Assembly: GCA_034190875.2 (NCBI GenBank)
Contig: CM067350.1
Location: forward strand, 20,959,855 to 21,023,854
Source of the DNA: Urechis unicinctus
Taxonomy: Eukaryota > Annelida > Polychaeta > Xenopneusta > Urechidae
Length of the DNA stretch: 64,000 nt
Reading direction: 5' to 3'
The translations under genes and the position numbers were made by a program. Under the pieces are notes generated by a model, which had not been told where the DNA came from, made no database searches, and was given only the letters and a program-made list of their open reading frames with translations. Shown here piece after piece: positions 15,590 through 64,000 of this stretch (positions within the stretch are counted from its first letter, which is position 1; each line of letters starts with the position of its first letter).

Positions 15590-17900
15590 ACCGGGGAAAT
15601 TCAACAGTAACAGGCTGTTGAAAGGTGGTGGCCAGGGGGGGAATATGTGTTGACAGTGTGTTATAGGCAACTAGTTTATAGTGGCTCTGTAGTGATCACT
15701 TCCCTAATTAAAATACATTGCAATCGTTAGGTGGCGCTACTGTGACACCAACAGAAGCACATGGGATTACTGGGCTGACGTCACTGGGATTGATTAGAGC
15801 GGGAAAAATGTTGTTTTGCAGACACTTGCTGCTGCCTAAACACGCTGCACAATAGGCTTATGAATAGCGAAAATAACAAGTACACTATTTAATCAATGTC
15901 AATTTGATAAATTACCCGGACTGGGGTACACCTATCAAAAACAGTTCGCCTCTAACAGCGTCTGCGCAGTTTACGATCCTCGATCTTTCATGTCCACACT
16001 GTGGATGGTAGTTTTAGATTGTCAATAACTGTCTGAAGCGATGGAACTGATCTGGGGTCGACATTAACATTTTTGGCATGTCAGGGGGTGTGAAGGTCTC
16101 GAACAAGGAGTTTAGCTGTGTGACGATTGTGAAATTACACGAAAGACACCCCCGACATCAGGCGACAATACCATGAAATCAACAAAAGCACATGGGACTC
16201 ATGATCCAACATCTTGGGGCTCAGCAGCTGTTAAAGATATGGAGTCATCTGATTGGTGAGGGGGACTGAAGCTCCAAATCAAACAGAGAATTCCACGTGG
16301 TTTTAAGAGATGCTATGACAATAACGTTTCGGCTTACAGGTGGCGTACTGGTAGTAATGTAATAGCACCTAGCTTAATGAAGTGGCATATGCTTTAAGTG
16401 ATGGTCTTGTTGTGTACCCTAAACTCACTATCAAACAAATGCACTGTCATGCTCCTGTTTACAACCCATTACCAGCCTGCAATACAATAGTACATGGTCT
16501 ATGGGGGGGTGAGGTCTATGTAGGTGTACATGGTTACTTAATGGGGTGTCTACACCAGTGTAATGAGGCTTTCATGCAGGGACCAAAATCAGCTCTAATG
16601 ATGAAGTCTGTCAAACAGAAACACTGGTTTTTATTTCGATTTACCAGCTGCAGTATTGAAATAATAGAAAGTAAGTCTTTAATAACGGACTGTATAATGC
16701 TGGTTTCTTCACCTTACTTGATTAATGTTAAAAATCAATTTAAACGCCCTTGCAAAGTTTAAAACAATGAGGGTTGGTTTATCTCAACCATTTGAAGAAC
16801 TTCCATGCCCGGACTCTCTGGTTGAATGATATATTGTTGAACTTGGCACCCAGCCACATGGTCGGGGGTTTCCCAGTGCTGTCTGGGCAACAGTTTTGTG
16901 CCAAGTGAGCGATTCCACTTTAAGTTACGCGAAACTAATTCCCGATCTCTGATTGGCTTATTAAGCAAGCTCTCAGCGCAGCTGTTAAATCTCTTGCCCT
17001 GTTACGATGTTCCTCAAGTGAACATTATGATAGTGGACGTTTCGCTTTTCAACATCATAACGGCGATTAGGAGACGCTATTTCGTTTTTTTCAGAACACA
17101 TCCTTTCTGTTCCAGATGGCAAGCGTCGAGATATCTATATAGAAACGATATTATATATTTAGATATAGAAGTGTGACGCTTCGAATCCTAACAGCGGGGA
17201 CCGAGAACCTTTGTTTCAAAATGCATTGGACGGCGATTTTAAAACGAAGCCGTTTTCTGTGTTGACGATGTACGTTTAGATGTACGACATCAAAATTTTC
17301 CCTGTTTATTTGCAAAAAAAATTCAACATGACTATGTTCGTAGACTAATATAGAACCTGCTGGAGTTTCTGATATCGTTTTTGAAGAGTCTGGGCTGTGC
17401 CCGTCCATAGAAGCACGAATATAGGAAAATGATGCATATCGTGTGCAGTTCGGCGCTCTAAACCCCACCGTCGGCATCTTCGAGGAACGATACAATTGAA
17501 GAATGTACGTGCTGGTTGAGATGATAATGCTTCTTAAGATTTCAAGACCCTAAGAACCTTTGGCCAATCGGTCAACTTTAGGAACTATCAACGATTACGA
17601 AATATATTTATGGTTCATATCTTACGTGCTGTGAGGGAGTAATCTGTGAATGGACTATGGTATTAATCAGACTGATTTATCTGGTAAAATACACCCTGAA
17701 CTCAACTGTAATCGCATTATTTGATTCAGATTGCTACATGGTGCATGACATTTCGAGATTTGTAAAACTATATGATGAAATATATGCGATTGTTTGAGTT
17801 TTCTATGAACATTCGGACGGCTGAGGAATTGTCCGACGACCTTAGACGTCCTTGACACGTCCTTGACACGCACTGGCGTTACAGTAGGTCATGCACGAGG

Positions 17901-17936
<36 letters not shown>

Positions 17937-18750
17937 GAATAAGAGTTGTAACAAGCTCTCAGTTGGTGCAAGGGCAAGGATGTAACCCCATTAACGACCA
18001 GTTTCTTCAGACACATCCTATTTGAAAACCTAATATCGCTTCTAAATATGGAAGGTCCTATAAAAAATCTATTCAACGAATTTCCTCTATTCAAAAGAGG
18101 TTTTTTATGAGCGCATAGCGTCTTTTGTTACTGAGGGTTGGCCGACTTAACTTGTTCTCGGTTGACTGGTCGCGTTGAATACGAAGTAGGTAGGACTGTC
18201 TCGGTGCAGAAATGAGCGCAAGTCCTTGCCCTTGAGGTGAAGGTCGTAAGCTGGAGGTTTTGGAGTACCACGTCCAGGCGGGTGTCCAGGGGTGAGGGAG
18301 TGAGGAGGGGGTGTGAAATGGGTTGATATGGTTTGGGGAGAGTTGCTCTGTTTTCTCAGATTTTAAACAGTTACAGTAATATGAGCTTCTAATAAATTAA
18401 GTTGGTATCCGAATAATTCTTAGCGTATATGTAATGGTAACATGCGTAAATCTGTATGTGTATGTCGTGACGATCTGATATAACCATGCGAACACGAGAG
18501 ATCTATAGTAGTGAACAGCACGGACGCTGTCAGAGGCCATGCTTCTTAAAGATCAAAACTAACGTTTTTTGGCATATCCGATTTGTATGTTTCAAAATGT
18601 AGGAAAATATCTTTTAATCTGACCACGGTAGATAATTTTACATTCTCTCAAGTACTGTGGACATAAATCCGCTGAGAATGTGGTGCTCGGGTTTAATTCC
18701 GATTGAATTCCCAGAGTCCATTTTGCACCAGTTGGTCGCTAGGAGGCAGG
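15590..18750. repeat. Spacer with 33-C homopolymer
   Basis: No gene is recognised here. The most striking element is an uninterrupted run of 33 C at 17902-17934 (33 G on the other strand). A TGACGTCA palindrome occurs at 15776-15783. The remainder is AT-rich sequence with short open frames lacking any domain. Confidence 0.6.
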
Positions 18751-18755
18751 ACGCG

Positions 18756-18763
18756 TGACGTCA
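18756..18763. promoter_or_regulatory. CRE-like palindrome upstream of P2X7-like gene
   Basis: TGACGTCA, the full CREB/ATF consensus, lies within CGTGACGTCACGTT. It ends exactly 117 bp before the ATG at 18881. The same palindrome sits at the same distance before the opposing THAP gene. About 19 bp around it (CGTGACGTCACGTT-x-GC-x-GCTC) are shared in inverted orientation with that site. Confidence 0.5.
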
Positions 18764-18880
18764 CGTTTGCGGCTCGTCCCAAAGCAAATTCGAAGGCGGC
18801 ATTTCGGAAGCTGAGAAAAATTATATGATCCGCGATTTTTTCCCTGCAACTTTCCTTTCTACTGATTGGTATATATTAAC

Positions 18881-20071
18881 ATGTCGTCATCAGATGAAGA
18901 TTATGAAGCCTCATTAGATGAAATGAGGACTTATGATGTCCGTTGATATTTATTTGAGCCCACACGATTGCGAATAACAACCGAGTCAGATAATGATGTT
19001 GGGAGCTCAGAAACGGATTCCGATTCGGAAAATGAATGCAGCAAAGACGCTTTGACTTTCTGGCCAGTGGAAGTGTGGTAGGTAGAAATTTTTCGTCTCT
19101 ATTAGTCTAAATGGATTAGCACCGGTAGAAATAACAATTCCGTGTAATGGGGTCTATCTGGCCTACACACCCAAGTCAATAAATTCACCCAGCGCGTTCC
19201 CCGAGCGATAGTGACATGTATGATAATATACATAATTGACTTGGGTGCCTGTGAACTGGCCCCTTTCAGAATTTAGACGTCCTGTTAATATATCTCTCAG
19301 CAGTGTATATTTAAAAGACTAAGTCTACTCTTTTGCTCACAAATAAAGTCAGAATGCTCAGAAGAATTTGTGAATCATGGACAAACATGGACTGCTGGGT
19401 CAGCTTTTGTTATGTGAATGATCTAACTTGGAGTTCAAAATGGCTAAAGCTTGATTTGGGCAACCTTTTAGGTGTAGCTGTAACAACTGCGATCAGATGA
19501 CCACATTGCGGGAATGTGTTTGTTGTCGAAATTACCTGAAGACTCTGGCAACAATAGAAGAGTGGCCATGTATGACCGAACATCCAGGGTTCAAGTCAAA
19601 CTGCTTGGACCGTTATGTCCTGCTTGCATCGAAATTCTAGTACATACAGATAGATGGACATATAGGGGATGAAGTTAACACAAATGAGTTAGTTTATGCC
19701 TTTATTGAAGCACATATAAGACACAGCCACTTCTGGACATGGACAATGTGTATCCCAAGTGTCCATGTTGTGCAATAGATTTGGTAATCACGTTCAGTGC
19801 TACATGACAACAAACAGCAAAACCATCAATACATTTATATCTGGAGTACATAGTTGACAAAACATTATTTTCATATTTCCCTAAGAAATAATCAATTCTT
19901 TTTTGCTCCAGGTTATTCAGATATTTGGCCTATCGCCATTTCATCTACTGGGTGTGGCACAGATTAGGTAGACATAACAGAAAAGTATTGCCATCATGTG
20001 TCGTAAACAAAATAAGATCTACATTCCCAGATCCAGAGGGCATTTACAAAGGATACCTAGAAAGTAGCTGA
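18881..20071 (+). pseudogene. P2X7 ballast-domain-like gene, two in-frame stops
   Basis: Exons 18881-19077, 19472-19687 and 19912-20071 join in phase (2 then 2). Exon 1 starts MSSSDEDYE, then Y-L-F-E-P and a Ser/Asp/Glu-rich run. Exon 2 carries the hallmark Cys pattern C-x-C-x2-C (CSCNNCDQMTT), E-C-x-C-C, and W-x-C-M-T-E-H-P-G-F. Exon 3 has YLAYRHFIYWVWHRLG and VLPSCVVNKIR. This is the zinc-binding 'ballast' module that forms the cytoplasmic end of vertebrate P2X7; in invertebrates it also occurs as separate proteins without the channel. No channel part is present here. TGA (18944-18946, before YLFEP) and TAG (19638-19640) break the frame, so it is probably a pseudogene, although the splice sites (GTAGGT, GTTAGT, both AGs) are intact. 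A poly(A) signal AATAAA is at 20276-20281. Confidence 0.8.
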
Positions 20072-21982
20072 GGAGATTTTGTTTGCATGATTGAAGCGGC
20101 ATCGGTGTGCTCCCACAAGGATGTCCTTTGCTGGCTTTTCAATTGAGCAGCAATAGGGGGCGGAACACTCCTTTCCGCCGAAAGGACTTTCGCCAGTCTG
20201 TAACTGGGATATTTCTCACGAAGCACAAACACTTCAGTAATGAGGTTGTCAACATAATCTGAAGCATAACCAGTTAATAAAAGATTAGTAATAAATTGTC
20301 TTTGAATCATTAAATGGAATGTTTGGTCTTTTGTGCCAGTATAATTACCCTATGGGCACGGCAGGAAACTCATAATAAATTTATCTTAATAAATGCCAGC
20401 ATTACATTATTGTTGAACTTATATTTACATATATTGAACAACAAATCCTGTGATATATACCAACCAAAACAGGCTTCACCACTGGATCACCCTGTCTGGA
20501 CTTTGGAAAGGACACTCCCCATTGTGCCTGGCCTTGTTGAGTGACTGCCTGAGCTCTATTGGAGTTTTCATTAAAATGCAAAACTGCAAGGAGTAATCTG
20601 GAAGTAAAGCACCAACAGTAGCAGATATAGCCTGGTGGTCTGGCATGCCCATGTGAGCTCACAATACACCAGCATGTCATAACTTTACAAGCACCAACAT
20701 AAACCCATGTTTTACATCAGGTATTTGCAATATATACCACACTTCAGTCACAGCAAAGCTCAATTAAATTACCTTGCTTCCATAGTGGCAAAGGGAAAGT
20801 GTACACTCTTGGGCGCGAAGAAGATCACCACCTTGTGGAAAGATTCTAAGCTGGATGTCTGTTCAGACAGAGATAATCTGCCAATGTCTTTCAGAAGGTG
20901 TTTGCTGTTTACGACCAGGGCCATCCTCTAGCTCAATGCCACTATAAAACCAAAGTTGTAGGTGCTTTATTAGGCTTATGAGAGAGCACTGATTTTTATA
21001 AGCATGCAATACAATTCCACTGTTTACAGGGATTTTCAAAGTAAACTATCACTTACATGTTCATCCATACCATCCTCGTCACTTTCCATGTCGAATATAG
21101 ACATCCAGGTGACTCAATATACTTACAAGCAAACATGTTTGTGGGAGCCCTCCACCGGTTCAGTTGAGCTGGCACACCTGTCATCTCGTTTTCACTTTCA
21201 CTGGAGGCATCAAGCATCTCAGCTCCAGTTAACATTTCATGCAGCACCTACAAACAGAGGCATCATGTGTTTCAGTGTCGACCAGATGTACACCAATGAT
21301 ATTTCCCAAAATCACCTATATCAATATACTCCTATATACAAACTGTCTAATTTGTCCTATGACATCAGTAGTACTCATGTAAATGGACCAATTAAACACA
21401 GTATGTAGTGTATCCAAATCCCTAAACAAAAACAGGCAATGTCATGCAAGTATTTTGAGATCACATTGAAACACCAGTTATTGAGCCATGCCCATGGGGC
21501 CTTTCTTTACCAGTGATGCCTTAGCCTTAACACGGACATGTCATTTGGGTCGTATGATTATTCATATAAGAAATAAATTTTGCTGTCAATCAAACACTAA
21601 GGCACAACCACGACTGGGAATGAAAATTGAATGGTCCTAGCTATCTTACCTGTTGACGTCGTCTTTTCTCAAAGGCACCTCGACGTCTTACTCGATCCTG
21701 GTTCACACCCATGTAATTTAAAATCGATGGCATGGCACCTTGGCGAAGCCTAGTTTGTTTAGAAAAGCCCAGACTTATGAGCAGCTCTGGGTCCGTTTCA
21801 TAGGCGTCTCTCTCAAAGTGGTCGGAGCAAAGGACAGGAGTTGTTTTTTGGTCGGCTTCCAATCCTTCCTCTTCACCTTTACAATCGAATTCTTGTGCAT
21901 GTTTCGGTCTTTCGGGAACCGAAAGAAACTCTTACCCGACCTCTCGTCGTTTCTTCTCCCAACCGACACAACAATAAGGCAT
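20044..21982 (-). pseudogene. THAP-domain transposase-like gene, frameshifted
   Basis: Minus-strand exons 21650-21982, 21178-21247, 21057-21112, 20773-20927, 20461-20597 and 20044-20258; all phases agree. Exon 1 encodes a THAP zinc finger in pieces: MPYCC, then SFFRFPKDR, RKDWKPTK and LCSDHFERD. Two frame breaks separate these pieces, one at an A6 run (21846-21851) where a seventh A would restore the frame. Later exons encode a module I associate with THAP-linked transposon proteins: SSLESFHKVVIFFAPKSVHF, then ARLLLAVLHFNENSNRAQA, W-x-V-x-F-P-K, and YVDNLITEV. The catalytic middle expected in a complete protein is not seen, so this looks like an internally deleted, decaying copy. A poly(A) signal (minus AATAAA) lies at 19701-19706, making the two convergent transcripts overlap. 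Confidence 0.75.
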
Positions 21983-22099
21983 AATCCAAACTGTGAGTGT
22001 AACAAACCGTGAAGACTTTTTCATAAACCATCAACGAGCCGCGACAACAATGGCGAAGTTTGTTGACATTCGTGATCAGCGAGCGCAGAGCAGCGAACG

Positions 22100-22107
22100 T
22101 GACGTCA
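22100..22107. promoter_or_regulatory. CRE-like palindrome upstream of THAP gene
   Basis: TGACGTCA lies within CGTGACGTCACG, and 117 bp separate it from the THAP start codon (first base 21982, minus strand). This mirrors the arrangement at 18756-18763. Confidence 0.5.
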
Positions 22108-24338
<2,231 letters not shown>

Positions 24339-25837: not shown

Positions 25838-27469
25838 CTAGTGAACTTTAGCTTTCCACACCGAATGAGGCACGAACCTGTTGAAGGTCATGGCGGCCAG
25901 TTTGAAGGTCACCCACATTAGAGACACGGCAAGGAGAAGCACCCCACCGCCCAGAACAGCGATGACGTCCAGCGAGAAATACTGGAACCAGGTGAGCGTA
26001 TGTGCGGCCGACTTGAGATGCTTGGCCCCTCCATGTCTGATGACGTAGTCGATCCAGAACTTGATTTTCTCCTCAGCCGAGATGGGTTGGTCGCGAAGCC
26101 GACTGGAAATCGCCAAGGCATTCTGTTTATAGACCGGATTGCTGATAACCTGGACCACTCCGTCATGAAGGATTTTGGGGGATAAGTCGTAGATGTTGAC
26201 TTTTAGGCCCATCTGTAGGTAGTCGACGAGTTTGGCAGCATGGTGAAACTGGTCACCACTGATAGGAATCGCCAGAACAGGAACCCCGAAATGGACACTC
26301 TCAAACATGGCGTTGAGGCCACAATGGGTGATGAAAAGTCTCGTTTTGGGGTGCGCCAAAAGGTCCGCCTGGGGAAGCCATTTCATGATTCGGATGTTCT
26401 GTGCGCCGCTGGTTTGATTCAAGATTGTTTTGGTATCCCCATAATACCGCCAAATAACTTTCTGCGGCAGACGAGAGAGGGCTTGAACAAAGACAGTCGT
26501 CCAGTCTTTGTTGAAGCGTTTCACCAGAGTTCCGAAACTTAACACGATGATCCCAGCATCACCGGACGATTGGATGAACTCTTCCAGCTCGGACGGCAGC
26601 GGGGATGGTGACTTGATGGCGAATCCACCAACCATGACTGTATCGGGCTCGATCGGTGCCGGGAAATCGACGGCAAAGTCCGAATTGACCAGCTTAATGG
26701 ATGCTCTTGAAAAAGTATCAGCAATCGAGAGGCTGGTATTAATGTTATGCTTTCTCTTCAGATCCTCGAACGTCTTATCGAAGCCCATAACGACAGGGAT
26801 CGTGTCGTACATGACCTTCATGATGAGGTTACCCAGACGCTGAGCGAAGGTCATCTGGGAAGTGTAAGGGGCGATTGTAGCAGGGATGTAGGAGGGTAAG
26901 CGTGGATTCCCATCCCAGTGACCCAGTCCAGCCGTGAACAGGGGCACGAAGGGAATATCGAGATAGTCGGCCAGAATTCGCCCGCACGGATCGATGGCTT
27001 CGATGATGAACAAATCGTAGTGTGCTGTTTTCAGTCGTTGCAGCAGGCTCACATCGGAAAGGAGTTTGTCACAGTAACGTCCGAACGTCTCCACCAGAGA
27101 ATGAAAACGTACTTTGATCGGGGAATATAGCATGAAGTCAATCGTATCGTACTCACAAACGGGGACGTAGTTGTCTGGTCCGGAAAATTCTACCAAATTG
27201 GTCCCAGGCGCCGAGGCAAACGGCTCGGATCCCTTTCGCCGATGATCGAAGCCACGGTATGCGGAGCTGATGAGAAAATCCACCGTGTGTCCGTCGGCGC
27301 CCAGGATGTGGGCCAGCCTCTCCGCGTTGAGGAGATGCGAATTGAGGCAATGACCAAATGGGTAGATGAGGATGCTGCCCCCCTGGACGGCATTCAGTCC
27401 CAGCAGCCCAAGCAACAGCAGTCGCATCATCGCGTCCAAGAACCCTCTGAGCTCTCTTTCCATTTCCAC
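25838..27469 (-). CDS. UDP-glycosyltransferase (UGT, GT1 family), intronless
   Basis: A 543-codon open frame, close to the usual 520-530 residues of animal UGTs. These ER membrane enzymes transfer a sugar from UDP-sugar to small lipophilic acceptors, as in detoxification. Seen in order: a hydrophobic signal (MMRLLLLGLLGLNAVQG, residues 14-30); the catalytic His in NSHLL (H45); D-P-C-G at 160-163; the donor-binding signature from W364 (WLPQADLLAHPKTRLFITHC) to G-D-Q at 405-407; a transmembrane helix at about 500-525; and a short basic tail ending WKAKVH. The acidic partner that is usually Asp aligns with Glu157 here. The signature reads H-C-G-L-N rather than H-G-G. The first ATG adds 13 charged residues before the signal; the Met at 27430 is the better start biologically. 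Confidence 0.93.
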   Translation of the reverse strand: MEMERELRGFLDAMMRLLLLGLLGLNAVQGGSILIYPFGHCLNSHLLNAERLAHILGADGHTVDFLISSAYRGFDHRRKGSEPFASAPGTNLVEFSGPDNYVPVCEYDTIDFMLYSPIKVRFHSLVETFGRYCDKLLSDVSLLQRLKTAHYDLFIIEAIDPCGRILADYLDIPFVPLFTAGLGHWDGNPRLPSYIPATIAPYTSQMTFAQRLGNLIMKVMYDTIPVVMGFDKTFEDLKRKHNINTSLSIADTFSRASIKLVNSDFAVDFPAPIEPDTVMVGGFAIKSPSPLPSELEEFIQSSGDAGIIVLSFGTLVKRFNKDWTTVFVQALSRLPQKVIWRYYGDTKTILNQTSGAQNIRIMKWLPQADLLAHPKTRLFITHCGLNAMFESVHFGVPVLAIPISGDQFHHAAKLVDYLQMGLKVNIYDLSPKILHDGVVQVISNPVYKQNALAISSRLRDQPISAEEKIKFWIDYVIRHGGAKHLKSAAHTLTWFQYFSLDVIAVLGGGVLLLAVSLMWVTFKLAAMTFNRFVPHSVWKAKVH

Positions 27470-61609: not shown

Positions 61610-64000
61610 TACGGGTTCATCCGCTATCATTAGATACAATTCGGTGATGTCAACATGCGTATGATATTCTCTGCTATGTCCTCAACTACGACATCATAAC
61701 GAGAGCAAAACTGTGTCCTTTACTGAACATCTTCAGCAGTCATCGAGTGACAGCCGAGAAAGCATCTCCTTCAGCAGTCATCGCGTGACAGCCGTGAAAA
61801 CATTTAGAATGTGGGAATCGAAAGAACAAATGAACACCTGGATTACATGGAAAGCTAGAATACATGGAAAGCTGGAGAATATTTGGAACCCAGAGATCAA
61901 GGGATCCTAAAGAATATTAGGAACATTGAGCTATCTACGCTCTTTGACAGCCCAGCTCAGTATAGGGAGAAGAAGAAGAAGAATAGTAGAGAACATTTGG
62001 AGCCCAGAGTATATTGAAACCTAACGAATATGTTAAACCCAGAGTACATGGAAACCTAGAGAATATTGAGAACCCATAGTACAGGGAAATCCAGAGAGCA
62101 TGTGGAACCAAGTGTATATGGAGACCTACAGCACATGGAAACCTCTAGAATATTAGGTACCTAGGGTTCATGGAAACCTGCAGAATATTGGGGACCCAGA
62201 GTACATAGACATATGTGGAACCCAGACTGAGTATATGGAAACCTAGAGAACTTTACGAACCCAGAGTACATGGTAACCTAGAGAATATTGGAAACCCAGA
62301 GTACATGGGAACCTAGAAAATATTGGAAACCCAGAGTAAATGGGAACCTAGAAAATATTGGAAACCCAGAGTACATGGAAACCTAGAGAATATTGGAAAC
62401 CCAGAGTACATGGGTACCTAGAGAATATTGGAAACCCAGAGTACATGGAAACCTAGAGAATATTGGAAACCCAGAGTACATGGAAACCTACAGAATATTG
62501 AAAACCAAGAGTACATGGAAACCTAGAGAATATTAGGAACACAGAGTACATGGAAACCTAGAGAATATTGGGAACACAGACTGCATGGAATCTTACGGGT
62601 TCATCCTCTGTCATAAAATACGATTCAGCGAGGTCATCTTGCGTTTGGTTTTCTTCGGCATGTCCTCATTTTCACAATTCAGTAAACTTTAACTACGACA
62701 TGACGCTCATCATAACGGGATCAGCATCTCCATCAGGAGTAAATCTTTAGAATGTGTGAATCAAAAGAATAAATGGAGTAAATGAAAAGCTAGAATACAT
62801 GGAATCCTACAGAATACTGGGGACCCACAGTACATGGAAACCTACAGAATACTGGGGACCCAGAGTAAATGGAAACCTACAGAATATTGGTGACCCAGAG
62901 TACATGGAAACCTACAGAATATTAGGGACCCAGAGAACATGGAAACCTACAGAATATTGGTGACCCAGAGTACATGGAAACCTACAGAATATTGGGAACC
63001 AAGAGTACATGGAAACCTACAGAATATTGGTGACCCATATTACATGAAAACCTACAAAATGTTGGTGACCCAGAGTAAATGGAAACCTACAGAATAGTGG
63101 GAACCAAGAGTACATGGAATCCTACAGAATATTGGTGACCCAGAATACATGGAAACCTACAGAATATTGGGAACCAAGAGTACATGGAAACCTACAGAAT
63201 ATTGGTGACCCAGAGTAAATCGAAACCTACAGAATATTGGTGACCAAGAGTACATGGAAACCTACAGAATGTTGGTGACACAGAGTACATGGAAACCTAC
63301 AGAATATTGGGGACCCATATAACATGGAAACCTACAGAATATTGGTTACCCAGAGTACATGGAAACCTACAGAATATTGGGGACCCAGAGTATATGGAAA
63401 CCTACAGAATATTGGTGACACAGAATACATGGAAACCTACAGAATATTGGGAACCAAGAATACATGGAAACCTACAGAATATTGGTGACCCAGAGTAAAT
63501 AGAAACCTACAGAATATTGGGAACCCAGAGTACATGGAAACCTACAGAATGTTGGTGACACAGAGTACATGGAAACCTACAGAATATTGGGGACCCATAT
63601 AACATGGAAACCTACAGAATATTGGTTACCCAGAGTACATGGAAACCTACAGAATATTGGGGACCCAGAGTATATGGAAACCTACAGAATATTGGTGACA
63701 CAGAATACATGGAAACCTACAGAATATTGGGAACCAAGAGTACATGGAATCCTACAGAATATTGGTGACCCAGAATACATGGAAACCTACAGAATATTGG
63801 GAACCAAGAGTACATGGAATCCTACAGAATATTGTGAACCAAGAGTACATGGAAACCTACAGAATGTTGGTGACCCAGAGTACATGGAAATCTAGAGAAT
63901 ATTTGAAACCAACAGTACCTGGAAACCTAGGTAATATTGGGAACCAAGAGTACATGGAAACCTACAGAATATTTAGGACCCTGAGTACATGGAAACCTAG
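61610..64000 (+). repeat. Large 35-bp minisatellite with higher-order duplication, runs off the end
   Basis: Over 55 copies of a 35-bp unit containing ACATGGAAACCTACAGAATA and TTGGTGACCCAG. A flank-plus-array block starting at ACGGGTTCATCC (61611) recurs 984 bp later (62595). Within the second array a block of eight units (280 bp) is repeated almost exactly (63289 and 63569). The array continues past the window end. Confidence 0.9.

Follow-up and report, generated by a model that had tools for sequence, protein, structure and literature searches.

What kind of genetic unit places a P2X7-ballast-like gene and a THAP transposase-like gene face to face within a few kilobases, each preceded by the same palindrome? 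The question is raised by a 64,000-bp stretch of the genome of the annelid Urechis unicinctus (contig CM067350.1, positions 20,959,855–21,023,854; hereafter the window, in whose own coordinates features are given), for which a sequence-only reading had proposed a co-inherited and possibly mobile gene pair. The two facing genes are parts of one DNA transposon of 3,749 bp (18546–22294), very probably a non-autonomous, internally deleted copy of a Kol0-type Kolobok cut-and-paste element. The TTAA target, the AG termini, the THAP and transposase exons, and the ballast gene together place it in Kolobok, Kol0 type, with the ballast gene as its KolX.

Element ends and copies

The palindromes, once taken as the limits of the unit, are not its ends: similarity between copies continues outward on both sides, to TTAA sites about 200 bp further out, where an outer inverted repeat, lying outside the palindrome repeat, carries TTAA at both extremes (Table 1). 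The window has 4,499 pairs of TTAA sites spaced 2.5–6 kb apart, and this pair ranks first in the match of its inner sequence; the inner termini begin with AG on both sides, giving the form 5'-RR ... YY-3'. Copies were sought in the same 1.19-Gb genome, and 20 loci, picked from 150 listed ballast places for scores near that of the window copy, were compared with window positions 17500–23500. In 17 of these 20 loci similarity starts no more than 10 bases from 18546, and in 16 it ends no more than 4 bases from 22294, in flanking sequence that differs from copy to copy; the copies share an edge at TTAA. Counting the window, 15 of 18 readable left ends and 16 of 17 right ends have TTAA, as do both ends in 12 of 14 readable rows, the pattern of a TTAA target-site duplication. 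The exceptions are L010 and L020 (TGAA), L017 (ATAA), and L025, in which the site is replaced; L012 and L026 fall on a stretch where at least three copies sharing TTAA follow one another head to tail.

The family is multi-copy. The 40-bp left terminus, allowing two mismatches, is found at 237 places in the genome, its reversed control at none. Most aligned rows are at least 99% identical to the majority, and the family has apparently, as judged from its sequences, been amplified recently.

Convergent pairing across the genome

At least 58 of the 150 listed ballast exon-3 matches (from 2,984 first-look candidates) have a listed transposase exon within 5 kb, and all 58 pairs are convergent, with a gap of 365–422 bp between the two matches; about 0.16 such pairs would be expected by chance. 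The transposase side of this count comprised 128 listed places for the second half of the query (first-half rows being excluded), drawn from the listed part of 207 matches, and 58 is a lower bound on pairs that are copies of related elements, not independent events. Ballast exons are themselves abundant, all 150 scored matches, out of 2,591 first-look candidates, exceeding the family cut-off. The two gene families thus adjoin at other loci, and the idea that a ballast protein and a THAP transposase are inherited together as one mobile unit is supported both by this convergent pairing and by the shared TTAA boundaries.

Matches to transposase exons are also evenly spaced at C11:53787166–53806688 (three, ~9.4 kb apart) and at C11:42706521–42718479 (three, ~5.8 kb apart), which suggests tandem duplication of element-bearing regions.

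Two broken genes and a missing core

The sequence-only reading took both genes to be intact, but both are broken. In the plus-strand gene, the in-frame TGA at 18944 is common to 13 of the 15 aligned rows with bases there, and the TAG at 19638 to 12 of 16; these counts, like those of frameshifts below, come from an alignment of 17 rows, the window and 16 copies. The Kol0-lineage trait of a KolX with the P2X7 ballast fold is nonetheless encoded. Exons 2 and 3, joined manually with an X at the stop, match PF20478 at 2.5e-13, and exon 3 with exon 2 matches P2X7 chains at 1.3e-5; as for the seven conserved zinc-binding cysteines of the Kol0 lineage, in our own reading of the P2X7 alignment six pair with cysteines, and one further window cysteine lies nearby, unaligned. 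Pfam matches below the cut-off, to Baculo_gp41 (0.012) and ARMH2 (0.092), were dismissed.

On the minus strand, the two frames of the THAP exon match PF05485 at 3.1e-5 (over the cut-off) and 0.0024 (below it), and the majority reading of the 17 rows does so at 7.7e-12. The first of its frameshifts, after MPYCCV, is found in 14 of 16 rows, the second in the window only (1 of 15 rows measured). What this gene retains is the THAP exon, the acidic exon, the exon that carries the presumed catalytic E, and those that follow it. Between THAP and E, no exon for the two catalytic D residues and none for a zinc finger was found in the window element, and so the minus-strand gene is not the whole transposase for which it had been taken. 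The window copy does not encode the complete transposase of an autonomous Kolobok: its frames are broken and its D exons and zinc-finger exon were not found, and it is therefore filed as a non-autonomous copy only.

Full-length and core-less relatives

The DD catalytic core is present in a structurally full-length relative of 4,946 bp, L052. Its TTAA ends are the best of 593 pairs, their inner bases agreeing at 8 of 8 and 14 of 16 positions, and its exons comprise THAP, a core with GGDARCCSPG and TTDRH, zinc finger, E and C, plus a facing ballast exon. A second family is represented by L029 (TTAA ends best of 499 pairs), in which a 364-aa frame with GDGRSDSPG and VVTDAHPQI faces a 169-aa frame that matches PF20478 at 2.1e-28. 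Full-length relatives that resemble the window element in their ends and gene order therefore have a DDD/E transposase, both D motifs being seen directly and the E read from exon homology. Between the second D and the E, where Kolobok transposases have a C/DxxH motif, L052 offers no clear reading frame. Matches of the L029 core below the Pfam cut-off, to Stereocilin (2.8e-4) and a Mutator-like transposase (4e-4), were dismissed. The KolX strand of L029 (there the plus strand) also holds a 206-aa open frame at 1349–1966 with a Cys-rich stretch, CRCKGQCVRRCPCKKNGTNCSTRCFC, and no Pfam match, reminiscent of CXC-type domains.

Other relatives are core-less. The L044 family, whose DNA is 61–66% identical to that of the window family, keeps the zinc-finger exon, and no D, D exons were seen in it; six further loci of this kind (L045–L050) have the same layout. 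Loss of the core seems to have happened independently in the window and L044 families. An extra 2.7 kb in L013 was considered as a core and rejected, its translations being self-repeating, like another insertion, with no core match. L007 and L043 form a nest of broken pieces in which nothing clear was found, and one scan of viral contigs gave no confirmed relative.

The paired palindromes

The octamer TGACGTCA, which we take to be the cAMP response element (CRE) octamer, a CREB/ATF site, stands at 18756–18763 and 22100–22107, each time within the 12-mer CGTGACGTCACG, which the window holds twice and which 100 simulated windows all lack. As first described, each palindrome lies 117 bp from the start codon of its gene (ATG 18881, plus strand; ATG 21982, minus strand), and an inverted match surrounds the two; its extent is 22 nt with 20 matching (18754–18775 / 22088–22109) rather than about 19 bp. 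The exact symmetry is not general, however, and was rejected as a fixed trait: equal 117-bp gaps are seen in 6 of the 12 copies in which both can be measured (range 111–120), and those of L052 are 101 and 109 bp (derived by hand, its start codons being assigned from their similarity to those of the window).

The palindromes themselves are conserved. Across the 17 aligned rows, all 14 that extend to the left 12-mer retain it, and on the right 16 of 16 retain the octamer and 15 the 12-mer; beyond that alignment, L010 has the right palindrome only and L040 only one. Genome-wide, CGTGACGTCACG has 1,062 sites versus 84 for the reversed pattern, whose base make-up differs. The octamers lie 210 and 187 bp inside the ends in the window and 209 and 186 bp inside them in L052; the L044 family keeps the left octamer at the same offset, and L029 has no TGACGTCA. 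Because these offsets are near-equal in L052 despite end regions only 53% and 52% identical to those of the window, a shared functional CRE-like element is suggested. The octamers are only the second-longest identical run on each side of this comparison, so other blocks are conserved too. Such is the case for a block ahead of the palindrome on the KolX side (18719–18755, with CCATTTTGC, CAGTTGG, CGCTAGG and GGCAGG), conserved also in L052 and loosely like what we take to be the CTCF motif. The paired octamer offsets are apparently new: no paper with both the octamer and Kolobok was among the literature matches listed, a weak indication that such paired sites have not been described before.

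Table 1. Features of the element, in window coordinates
Feature	Position	Strand	Basis or remark
Whole element, including both TTAA sites	18546..22294	.	Edges of similarity across fetched loci; ends read
Left TTAA and terminal inverted repeat, KolX side	18546..18570	+	Inverted repeat of 25 nt, 76%
Left CGTGACGTCACG palindrome, CRE-like	18754..18765	.	Octamer kept in L052 and L044
KolX exon 1	18881..19077	+	In-frame TGA at 18944; exon end read by eye
KolX exon 2, zinc-cysteine part, to in-frame TAG at 19638	19472..19637	+	PF20478, 0.0029 alone (below cut-off)
KolX exon 3	19910..20071	+	PF20478, 2.3e-10 alone
C-terminal transposase exon	20143..20262	-	Exon homology
Transposase exon LLLAVLHFNENSNR...	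20468..20596	-	Exon homology
Transposase exon with presumed catalytic E (SLESFHK)	20774..20935	-	Start read by eye
Acidic exon, transposase gene	21128..21247	-	Reading frames, exon comparison
THAP exon, broken by two frameshifts	21647..21982	-	PF05485
Right CGTGACGTCACG palindrome	22098..22109	.	Octamer kept in L052
Right terminal inverted repeat and TTAA, transposase side	22270..22294	-	Inverted-repeat search, TTAA-pair ranking, ends read

Outside the element, the window holds a run of 33 C at 17902–17934, ~0.6 kb to its left; a long UDP-glycosyltransferase frame on the minus strand (25838–27466; PF00201, 2e-102), probably a host gene; and a long tandem array of 35/105-bp units (62119–64000) that reaches the window end. 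Rfam gave no match in the window.

Published precedent

The passages of Kojima and Bao (2022; PMC9587614) drawn on here report that elements of the Kol0 lineage of Kolobok code for KolX besides a transposase. They liken KolX to the cytoplasmic ballast of P2X7, a receptor that they derive from a fusion with KolX, and describe Kolobok termini as 5'-RR, in contrast with piggyBac. The window element shares with these elements the TTAA target, the 5'-RR termini, and a transposase together with a KolX of P2X7 ballast fold; it differs in being broken and core-less, and those passages contain no mention of a paired TGACGTCA. These workers also state that ballast proteins had not earlier been pointed out as part of Kolobok. 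The transposon context that the sequence-only reading proposed for ballast proteins is thus right, but was already in print in 2022. The main idea of a Kolobok-ballast link is known, and the window family is a real non-autonomous Kol0-type Kolobok family.

Xenopus XKol and the T2-MITEs, in the parts of PMC6004289 considered, are similar in their TTAA flanks, AG termini, THAP, zinc-finger (H2CH) and DDE parts, and non-autonomous relatives; the word P2X is absent from the main text of that paper. The window ballast likewise has the same zinc-cysteine domain as the stand-alone invertebrate ZCD proteins, nanor and the P2X7 tail covered in the sections of Rump et al. (2020; PMC7016195) cited here, which place stand-alone ballast proteins in many animals and note one tick open reading frame that joins ballast to THAP. 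Those sections give one or few (<10) genes per species and no transposon, unlike the abundance of scored ballast matches seen here.

Weighing the assignment and its alternatives

Several points weigh against the assignment to a core-less Kol0-type element. The Kol0 label rests on gene content; the window E and C exons have no Pfam match, and the window tail aligns with an L001 fragment no better than shuffles do (204 of 500 score as well). The frames of L052 are interrupted, and its ballast match spans no more than residues 1–29 of the exon-3 query; no intact partner with the window family's own ends was found. When 52 loci and the window element were searched by tblastn (1e-3) with the L052 core, only L052 and part of L051 matched, and even L029 and L030 were missed; being insensitive by itself, this search leaves the absence of a core to rest on layout and tblastn together. 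At the edges, the alignment of L010 continues to 22763, those of L011, L013 and L018 end early on the right, and those of L015, L017 and L028 begin late. The promoter role of the palindromes, most likely as it is, is read from sequence.

Could these instead be two ordinary host genes, convergent by chance and driven by CRE promoters? Each has a start codon, exons and an upstream palindrome, but the pair is multi-copy, with sharp TTAA ends in differing flanks and broken frames common to most aligned copies, and these shared boundaries refute a reading that we find scarcely credible. THAP transposases of the P-element superfamily make an 8-bp target-site duplication; here only TTAA is common to both ends, and no longer repeat is seen in the flanks by eye. 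A piggyBac element that gained a KolX-like gene is very unlikely: the termini begin AG, as in the 5'-RR of Kolobok and not as in piggyBac, a THAP exon is present, and KolX-like piggyBac proteins lack most of the seven cysteines (as the cited passages of PMC9587614 have it) that are largely present in the window. Selection may, on the other hand, have kept the core-less THAP and KolX proteins as regulators of transposition, in keeping with pN/pS (nonsynonymous to synonymous polymorphism) values of 0.32–0.67 in 7 of 8 exon segments among 16 representatives, the acidic segment standing at 1.87. We regard this as improbable and do not claim it: frames are broken in most near-identical copies, the pairs of copies compared are not independent, and the constraint may have been inherited from full-length parents, given that different parts were lost in the window family and in the L044 family.

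A weightier alternative, which we would put somewhat short of an even chance, is that the palindromes are subterminal transposase-binding sites and not promoter elements. They do lie within near-symmetric subterminal inverted repeats, and conserved blocks of similar length occur elsewhere in the same end regions; against this, they lie 101–120 bp from the presumed translation starts of the window family and of L052, hold what we assume to be the full CRE octamer, and have no counterpart in L029.

Proposed mechanism and implications

For the Kol0-type element as we read it, full-length relatives carry two convergent genes, for a THAP-DDE transposase and for KolX, a stand-alone zinc-cysteine (P2X7 ballast) protein, each gene beginning ~0.3 kb in from its own end of the element. 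Binding of the ends by the transposase, probably via its THAP domain, would be followed by cutting and by insertion of the element at TTAA. Because the window copy lacks D-bearing exons and has broken frames, its subfamily was most likely mobilised in trans by transposase from another copy; the near-identical broken copies suggest a defective master moved by transposase from elsewhere. The TGACGTCA palindromes would most likely act as matching CREB/ATF-type promoter elements for both genes. That a clade of Kol0 elements runs its transposase and KolX from matching CREB/ATF promoter elements ~210 and 187 bp inside the ends is a tentative proposal, and one we hold to be less likely than not. If true, the CRE pair would couple both proteins to a single cAMP-type programme of the host, such as a germline one, and long conservation of the pair would imply that KolX has to be made together with the transposase and hence that it works in transposition.

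Multi-copy alignment within one genome provides an independent check that stand-alone ballast proteins are transposon cargo, as described for KolX in 2022, and the conserved CRE-like pair offers a testable handle on the role of KolX. First-look counts suggest hundreds to thousands of ballast exons in this one genome, so that invertebrate "P2X7-like" gene models may often be transposon genes.
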